From the NCBI RefSeq assembly GCF_036417845.1, contig NC_090011.1, positions 1,880,726-1,944,725 of the forward strand: a stretch of 64,000 nucleotides of DNA. The letters run 5' to 3'. The notes beneath the pieces are model-generated. The model saw only the letters and a list, made by a program, of their open reading frames with translations, was not told the DNA's origin and did no database searches. This stretch comes from Apteryx mantelli (Eukaryota; Chordata; Aves; Apterygiformes; Apterygidae). Below are positions 6,981 to 12,353 of the stretch, piece by piece (the first letter of the stretch is position 1; the number at the start of each line of letters is the position of its first letter). A program made the translations under genes and the position numbers.

Positions 6981-9900
6981 TCAGCAGAGCTGGACGCATC
7001 CGCCGTGTCCGCGGCAGGCTGGGAGGGAGGGAGACAAGATGGCGACTGAGGGGACATGGGGGGACATGGGGGACAAGGAGGGACATGGTGGGACACGGGG
7101 GACATGGAGGGACATGGAGGGACGTGGGGGACATGGGGGGTCATGGAGGGACATGGGGGACACAGGGGACACGGGACATGGAGGGACATGGGGGACATGG
7201 GAGGGACACGGATGGACATGGGACATGGGGGAACAGGGACATGTAGGGACATGGAAGGACATGGGGACACAGAGGGACATTGGGGACGCAGGTGACAGGC
7301 GCCAGGGCGGGTGCTCACCCAGGAGGCTGCTCCAGAAGGCGTCGCGGGTGGCCGTGCCGGTGACGGCCCCGGGCGTCGCGGGGTTGCGGCGGGTGCTGGT
7401 GACGCGCAGAGCCCGGCCCTGCTCCCCGACGCCCGTCACCTCCACCTCCACCACGTGCCAGTCGGGGACACTGCGGGGACACGGGGGGACACCCACCGTG
7501 CCGGGTGTCACGGGGTTGCGTCACACATCAGTGACGTGGGGAGCCCATCACCCCAACATCCGTCACCTCCTCCGTGTGCCAGGGGGACTTTGTGGGGGCA
7601 CAGGGTGACACGGGACATCACAAGGGACATCAAGGGGACACAGGGGACATGGCACACGCAGCGTTGTGGCGTTGCGCTGGATGCCACCAATGCGGAGAGC
7701 CTCCTCCCTGACACCCATCACCATCTCCATGTGCTGGGGGGACACTGGAGGGACATGAGGTGACACAGAGGGACATGGTGGGACACATGGGTGACATGGG
7801 GTGACACAAAGGACACACCGTCCCAGGCATCCCGGGGTGGCACTGGGCACAGGTGACAAGGAGAACCTGTCCCTGATGCCCATCACCTCCTCCATGTGCC
7901 GGGGAGACACTGGAGGGACATCGGGTGACACAGAGGGACACGGTGGGACACAGGGGTGACATGGGGTGACACAAAGGACACACCGTCCCAGGCATCCCAG
8001 GGTGGTGCTGGGCACCGGTGACAAGGAGAACCTGTCCCTGATGCCCATCACCTCCTCCACGTGCCGGGGGGACACTGGAGGGACATCAGGTGACACAGAG
8101 GGACACGGTGGGACACAGGGGTGACACGGGGTGACACAAAGGACACACCATCCCAGGCATCCCGGGGTGGCGCTGGGCACCGGTGACAAGGAGAACCTGT
8201 CCCTGATGCCCATCACCTCCTCCATGTGCCGGGGGGACACTGGAGGGACATGAGGTGACACAGAGGGACACGAGGTGACATGGAGGGACATGGTGGGACA
8301 CAGGGGTGACATAGGGTGACACAAAGGACACACCGTCCCAGGCATCACGGGGTGGCGCCGGGCACCGGTGACAAGGAGAACCTATCCCTGATGCCCATCA
8401 CCTCCTCCACAAGCCATGGGGACATTGCGGTGACGCCGGGGGGAACGGGGACGTGGGGGGTGGCGTCACCCACCTGGGGTCAGCCACCAGGCGGGCGAGG
8501 ACGCCGTCGAAGCCGAGGCGGGGGGCGGCCACGCAGGCGGCCGCCATGGTGTTGACGTTGTTGGGGGCCAGGGCGCAGAGGGGACGCACGGGTCCCTCGT
8601 AGAGCACCGCGGGGCCACCGGCCGCCACCGCCGCCGCCAGCCGCTCCCGCAGCGTCCCCTCCAGCCGGAAGCTCTGCGGCGCCTTCGTCATCGTCACCTT
8701 CAGCGCCTGGCGCGAGGGGACGCCGTCACCCACCCCGGCACCGACCCCACGGTGGCCTCCAACACCGCATTGGCGCTCGATGCGATGGTGCCCGGCACGG
8801 TGCTGTCACCCAACCGGATGTGGGCACCAACCCGGAGCTGGCATCAACCCAACGTTGTCACCCAACCACACATGGTCACCAACCCAACGCTGTCACCATC
8901 CCAGTGCCATCACCAACCCAACACCATCACCCAACCGGACGTGGGCACCAACCCAATGCTGGCACCACCACCCAACCAGACACCATCACCCAATTGAACA
9001 TGGTCACCAACCCAACACTGTCCCCAACCCAATGCTGTCACCCAACCAGACATGGTCACCACCCCGATGCCAGCATCAACCCAATGCTGGCACCCAACCA
9101 GATGCCGTCACCCAACTGGACATGGTCACCAACCCAACACTGTCACCAACCCAACGCTGGCACCCAAGCAGATGCCGTCACCCAACCAGTGTCCCCACCC
9201 CAGGGCTGACAGCAGCATCCGTACACTGGATGTCCTCACTGCCCCATGATGTCCTCAACCGCACGGTGTCTCCAGCCCCATGGTGTCCCCAATCCCATGG
9301 CGTCCACCCCACGGCATCCCCCACCCCACGGCGTCCCCGCCCCACGGCTCACGGCCAGCGTGCCGGTGGCATCCACGCACCGGATGTCCTCACAGTCCCA
9401 CAAGGTCCCCAACCCCGCGATGTCCCCACTCCTTGGTGTCCCCGACCCCACGGCGTCCCCGCCCCACGGCTCACGGCCAGCGTGCCGGTGGCATCCATGT
9501 GCCGGATGTCCTCGCAGCCCCACAAGGTCCCCAACCCCACAGTGTCCCCAACCCCACGATGTCCCCACTCCTTGGTGTCCCCCACCCCACCCCACAGTGT
9601 CCCCAACCCAGCTCACGGCCAGCGTGCCGGTGGCATCCATGCGCCGGATGTCCTCGCAGCCCCACAGGGCGCCGCGGGGCACGTAGAGCGTGTGACCTCC
9701 GCGTTCCGCCGCCTCCCGCAGCCGCCGCTCCGTGTCCGGATCCGCCAGCGCCGTTGGGGACCCCAGCTGGGGGACAGCCGGGGGTCACCCGCCGTCCCCA
9801 ACGTCCCCTCCCGCTGGCCCTGTTGTCCCCAGCATCCCCAGCATCCTGACGTCCTCCGTGTCCTGTCCCCAGTGGCCCCGCTGTCCCCCATGTCCCAGCC

Positions 9901-12353: not shown

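Follow-up and report, generated by a model that had tools for sequence, protein, structure and literature searches.

The edges of exons 2, 4 and 6 of the ASPDH gene of the kiwi Apteryx mantelli have been copied, together with their splice sites, into the neighbouring introns. Copies of a donor edge were found downstream of their exon and copies of an acceptor edge upstream of it in 3/3 significant arrays and also in a probable fourth. The arrays were very probably formed by exon stuttering, a local tandem duplication in GC-rich minisatellite DNA with one break in the exon and the other in the adjoining intron.

The ASPDH gene and its surroundings

The window, the whole stretch of 64,000 nucleotides that was analysed, covers positions 1,880,726-1,944,725 of contig C34 (2.67 Mb, in a genome of 1.5 Gb). 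ASPDH occupies positions 6981..12353 on the minus strand, with the start codon at 12353 and the stop codon ending at 6981. Its seven exons (12353-12299, 11657-11516, 10598-10514, 9766-9617, 8706-8474, 7470-7319 and 7018-6981) form an intact frame of 855 nt encoding 284 residues, and all six introns have GT-AG borders. Among the protein matches listed, the best was goshawk ASPDH with 87% over the full length, and in the protein alignment the frame was conserved in the bird orthologues, alligator, turtle and tuatara. Judged by its sequence, the gene looks functional. In a tree of the kiwi protein and 23 bird sequences, ostrich was placed next to it (98/92) and the tinamou Eudromia joined this pair (96/96), with the bootstrap unsettled.

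The neighbouring genes were all found on the minus strand. JOSD2 was recognised by its Josephin domain at about 3.5-4.3 kb and SYT3 by its C2 exons at about 30.9-45.9 kb, where the best solved match was synaptotagmin-3. A domain search found leucine-rich repeats together with an immunoglobulin domain in a gene at 16.4-19.0 kb, presumably LRRC4B by synteny. It also found an exon with a SAM domain at 55.4-56.0 kb, presumably of SHANK1 on the same grounds.

The share masked as tandem repeats is 67% for the window versus 5% for its first 4 kb. The JOSD2 end (1-4660) is nearly devoid of such repeats, and an abrupt switch to repeat-filled DNA occurs from about 4.66 kb, short of ASPDH. The JOSD2 introns measure about 70-85 nt in the protein alignment. 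Directly upstream of the ASPDH start, at 12756-13020, a 50-bp unit is repeated 5.3 times with 93% matches and contains the palindrome-like sequence CCGTCGCCGTGGCGACGG. In 18 spaced 10-kb samples of the contig, the regions at 60-350 kb and 2.02-2.59 Mb consisted of 43-100% tandem repeat with a GC content of 0.63-0.76, the sample at 480 kb had 25% tandem repeat, and the nine samples at 0.62-1.75 Mb had 0-5% with a GC content of 0.45-0.58. The contig is therefore split into a repeat-poor middle and ends where the samples are mostly repeat-filled and GC-rich, and the window is a GC- and repeat-rich portion of this small contig.

Copies of the exon edges in introns 4, 5, 2 and 1

All copies described here read on the minus strand, like the gene. 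For exon 4 (9617..9766), the last 50 nt with the donor are the source of the copies in intron 4. The copy f1 (9475..9524) is identical in 49/50 positions and its copied donor starts at 9474; the copy f2 (9353..9402) is identical in 46/50 positions with a donor starting at 9352. Both copies run on into a donor that equals that of the real exon over nine bases. A decayed third copy, f3 (9180..9300), shares 72% identity with f1 and, in the alignment used, 50% with the exon 4 region.

The 5' edge of exon 6 (7319..7470) with its acceptor is the source of six copies in intron 5, which are 69-73% identical to the exon 6 stretch. The copy nearest to the exon, c0 (7500..7622), shows 70% identity and has lost the acceptor AG. 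It is followed by c1 to c5 at 7655-7759, 7815-7937, 7980-8102, 8145-8267 and 8330-8454, of which c2 to c4 are 94-96% identical among themselves. The acceptor CCAG/TGTC was kept in 4/6 copies (before 7744, 7909, 8074 and 8239) and its AG was lost in 2/6.

From exon 2 (11516..11657), the 3' edge with the donor was copied into intron 2 (10830..11447), where copied donors start at 11362, 11183, 11010 and 10869. The donors at 11362, 11183 and 11010 equal the real donor over nine bases and that at 10869 is one base off. In three of these copies the identity extends across the last 16 nt of exon 2 and the first 12 nt of the intron, with 27/30 over the last 30 nt of the exon; the fourth is weaker (12/16). 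The 5' edge of exon 2 is probably the source of acceptor-edge copies in intron 1 (11740..11860), with 64-68% identity over about 60 nt. The earlier note had described copies beside exons 2, 4 and 6, each with its splice site; the copies were found at all three, and the splice site is missing in the two exon 6 copies without AG. The long period of about 120-185 bases that it had given agrees with Tandem Repeats Finder, which reported 122/142 in intron 4, 165/185/330 in intron 5 and 179 in intron 2.

Significance of the copies

At each of the 12 exon-intron junctions the intron flank was held fixed and only the exon half was shuffled, 500 times. For the exon 2 donor, the exon 4 donor and the exon 6 acceptor, not one shuffle in 500 came up to the observed value. 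At the exon 2 acceptor facing intron 1 it was reached by 7/500, and with shorter exon halves, whose lengths were picked after the copies had been seen, by 2, 1, 0 and 0 of 1000. Because 7/500 is not significant after 12 tests and the shorter lengths are post hoc, the derivation of the intron 1 copies from the exon 2 acceptor edge is called only probable. At the remaining eight junctions 65-500 of the 500 shuffles reached the observed value, and no significant exon copies were detected in introns 3 and 6.

The exons were also aligned to the introns by the Smith-Waterman method and compared with 300 dinucleotide shuffles each and with real tiles of the window. Exon 4 against intron 4 scored 276 (shuffle maximum 140; 0/126 tiles as high), exon 6 against intron 5 scored 195 (shuffle maximum 140; 0/112 tiles) and exon 2 against intron 2 scored 178 (shuffle maximum 173; equalled or exceeded by 2/124 tiles). 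The expectation that the units match the exons better than shuffled sequence does was thus borne out at all three arrays. A 12-mer scan in which no exon-intron pairs were fixed beforehand (4,668 tests of k-mer against intron, 40 shuffles) gave 104 tests that exceeded all 40 shuffles, led by exon 6/intron 5 with 22, exon 4/intron 4 with 19, exon 2/intron 2 with 16 and exon 2/intron 1 with 9. Among the 104 pairs, 20 were non-adjacent.

The published screen for stuttering (PMC12954441) requires a blastn-short match of 20 nt or longer with 42.1 bits or more, which is a detection cut-off and not part of the concept. Exon 4/intron 4 lies above it with 91.7 and 67.9 bits, where the maximum of 200 shuffle sets was 32.2. 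Exon 2/intron 2 stays below 42.1 bits with three matches of 36.2 bits, and exon 6/intron 5 gave no blastn-short match of at least 30 bits.

The short-period units

When the ASPDH exons were compared with the 244 arrays of the window that have a period of 8-60, the four best matches of each exon never included an array from an ASPDH intron. The derivation of the short minisatellite units from the exons gains no support from this comparison. A suggestive exception is the 12-mer GCGGGGCAATTG of exon 2, which has 15 near matches in intron 1 (11658-12298) versus 0.35 expected. Exon 2 may have given rise to the short-unit array of intron 1, an origin that the array comparison does not support. The claim that the introns are built from pieces of the gene's exons is supported for the long units, which span exon borders, and not shown for the short units, which were not matched, or for introns 3 and 6 with their lack of significant copies.

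SYT3 as a control

Nine edges of five SYT3 exons were tested with exon-half shuffles against minisatellite-filled flanking stretches of 1.8-3.2 kb, two of them with approximate ends; the stretch beyond the last mapped exon was simply the next 2,000 bases. No significant copies were observed at these edges (lowest count 36/500). Since SYT3 lies in similarly repeat-filled DNA, the surroundings alone are not the explanation, and exon copies need not occur in minisatellite introns. The difference between 3/12 junctions in ASPDH and 0/9 in SYT3 is not significant (P = 0.23). A value of P = 0.0007, calculated for at least 3/6 introns at the chicken dot-chromosome rate of 190/5572, was set aside because that rate is based on a stricter cut-off, by which ASPDH has 1/6 introns.

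Divergence, lineage and selection

The identities of 49/50 and 46/50 for exon 4, 27/30 for exon 2 and 69-73% for exon 6 indicate that the arrays differ in age or turnover. The three exon 6 copies that are 94-96% alike and much less similar to the exon point to later growth of this array within the intron. The codon state of H59, a position that is D in all 21 birds with data, recurs in the three close exon 2 copies, and f1 and f2 carry A139-T140, which among birds with data is common to ostrich only. These copies were therefore derived from the exons of this lineage, and they are, as their sequences suggest, younger than the H59 and A139-T140 changes or were homogenised afterwards. Ten residues of the kiwi protein are found in none of 18 neognaths. 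They were not enriched in the copied edges (3/66 versus 7/218, P = 0.70), and five of them (A139, T140, T162, V184 and C202) were found in ostrich and/or tinamou.

The differences between exon 6 and its copies are spread evenly over codon positions 1, 2 and 3 (48, 52 and 46), counts that are not independent because the copies are related to each other. They cover exon 6 only; for exons 2 and 4 no codon-position inference was drawn, since the aligned stretches held non-homologous bases. Together with the conserved intact frame, these counts favour the proposal that the true exon is the member kept by selection, and the real exon does look like the one so preserved.

Coding potential of the copied splice sites

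Ten hypothetical uses of the copied sites were translated, and 9/10 met an early stop. Only the copied exon 4 donor at 9352 left the frame open to the normal end. The copies do not show the undisrupted frame with coding constraint by which tandem exon duplications are recognised, and they appear to have no evident function and to add decoy splice sites. In the predicted ASPDH isoforms of five birds (P0026, P0029, P0035, P0036 and P0042) exactly exon 4, with its 50 residues, is absent. Skipping of exon 4 would preserve the frame in the kiwi gene, too.

Predicted ASPDH proteins of other birds

In the predicted isoform X3 of Vidua chalybeata ASPDH (P0038), the exon 6 start SVPDCHIVTVEVT occurs twice, neither time with the rest of the exon, and the predicted transcript ends in these two copies. 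In isoform X2 it occurs once with the normal continuation. According to this gene model, the copied acceptors may be used in Vidua. The Vidua units, reckoned from the protein, have lengths of 63 and 72 nt versus the 165-bp units in kiwi. Since the Vidua copies match their own exon and the unit lengths differ, the predicted amplification looks like an event at the same border that was independent of the one described here. Residues 218-277 of the Vidua isoform, used as a query, matched that protein alone.

When the best 120 of 1122 relatives were scanned for repeated 6-mers, a multi-word repeat was found in two, P0038 of Vidua and P0037, where it lies in an N-terminal extension, and single repeated words were found in three more. 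The predicted bird proteins P0009, P0037 and P0041 have odd N-terminal extensions, which are repetitive in P0009 and P0037. They are probably annotation errors from translated repeat or upstream sequence.

Mechanism and alternative explanations

The duplications could arise where exon and intron share short matches, by slippage, unequal exchange or templated repair. Minisatellite expansion may have nucleated across exon borders, as the earlier note proposed. At the upstream end of f1 the heptamer TGTGGGG is common to exon 4, the intron unit and the copy. It was seen at this array only, and 0.4% of the exon-intron position pairs near this end fall in matches of at least 7. Such a match is the pattern that would be expected from slippage or repair at short matches. 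After duplication of an exon end with its donor, or of an acceptor with the exon start, one complete exon with a working junction would remain, and because of this such edge duplications could survive. Duplications inside the coding sequence would be purged by selection. Survival after selection would thus suffice to explain the side on which the copies stand, as far as the few cases allow. Later rounds within the intron would make copies more alike to each other than to their exon, as seen for exon 6.

Could GC-rich low-complexity repeats look like GC-rich exons by chance? The exon 2/intron 2 score exceeds its shuffle maximum by only five units and is matched by 2/124 real tiles, and 20/104 enriched pairs of 12-mer and intron are not adjacent. 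However, none of the 500 exon-half shuffles reached the observed value at any of the three junctions, the exon 4 copies are nearly identical to their source (49/50 and 46/50), and the similarity continues across the splice sites. Chance was therefore rejected for exons 4 and 6 by Smith-Waterman scores and exon-half shuffles and for exon 2 by the latter, and we consider it extremely improbable. An assembler that multiplied or misjoined repeat units would also produce arrays. Such regions are described as difficult to assemble (PMC12954441), and one nearby sample of the contig has 5000 N in 10000 bases. Indels and a sequence difference of 2-31% separate the copies from each other and from the exon, a pattern not expected from simple duplication of reads, which makes an artefact very improbable.

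The copies could further be alternative or formerly coding exons of a functional tandem duplication, as most of them have intact donors or acceptors, the donor at 9352 gives a frame open to the normal end and the predicted Vidua isoform terminates in exon 6 copies. They are, however, edges with one splice site each, show no excess of third-position differences and lead to an early stop in 9/10 uses, so this reading is highly unlikely. The direction of copying could also be the reverse, with intron repeats expanding into the exons so that the exon edges are made of repeat. This would accord with H59, which is peculiar to this bird among birds with data, and with the copied exon 2 edge, which is one of the protein's less conserved stretches. 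The reverse direction is nevertheless extremely improbable: the edges of exons 4 and 6 can be recognised in every other bird aligned there and in alligator, turtle and tuatara (apart from the five isoform rows lacking exon 4), and the residues absent from the 18 neognaths are not enriched in the copied edges. Exon stuttering, from the exon into the intron, remains by far the best account of the three arrays.

With arrays of unequal divergence next to a minisatellite-filled gene in which none were detected, ASPDH offers a natural experiment on why some borders stutter. It is also useful for asking how splicing stays accurate amid perfect copies of its own splice sites. A more speculative view, to which we give less than even credence, is that particular exon edges are recurrent hot spots. 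The exon 6 acceptor edge would then have been amplified independently in a palaeognath and in Vidua, copied sites would be used enough to give new transcript ends, and stuttering would lead to continuing alternative splicing in genes of bird dot chromosomes.

Comparison with known systems

Exon or sequence stuttering was described on chicken dot chromosomes by Hron et al. (2026, Genome Biol Evol evag038; PMC12954441). They report 236 introns in 115 genes, about two per gene, with 190 on dot chromosomes. Lateral exon parts with a donor or acceptor are copied through the adjacent intron, and the stuttered introns show high length variation among individuals. The earlier note's statement that no such case had been described is thus incorrect. 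The paper mentions other birds in general terms and its main text does not name ASPDH. In our literature search the terms sequence stuttering and exon stuttering were met only in this paper.

In ASPDH as in the chicken cases, the adjacent intron holds tandem copies of the border portion of a coding exon, donor or acceptor included, while the exon itself stays intact. The introns are rich in simple repeats in both; the chicken genes lie on GC-rich small chromosomes and the kiwi window in the GC-rich part of a small contig. Contig C34 may be a dot chromosome by its length of 2.67 Mb and its GC-rich, repeat-filled sampled ends, though the nine samples of its middle lack these features. Unlike the chicken cases, ASPDH belongs to another bird lineage, and two of its three arrays have diverged so far that they miss the published cut-off. 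On the features tested, ASPDH fits exon stuttering except for these two arrays below the bit-score threshold. The phenomenon is already known in chicken, and ASPDH is a new case from a bird placed with ostrich and tinamou. Since stuttering is seen in this branch as well, the process is old in birds or has arisen repeatedly.

Tandem exon duplications that give alternative exons comprise complete exons, each with an open frame and a splice site on either side. They share with ASPDH the duplication of exon sequence into a neighbouring intron, whereas the ASPDH copies are only edges, decayed, and most of them lack an open frame. Intron gain by tandem genomic duplication is similar in that a tandem duplication within the gene supplies splice sites, but in ASPDH no intron is created, and the introns already present acquire additional copies of the splice sites that bound them. 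Ordinary intronic minisatellites consist of short-period arrays like those filling the ASPDH introns; in contrast to these, the long-period units of ASPDH contain exon sequence and splice sites.
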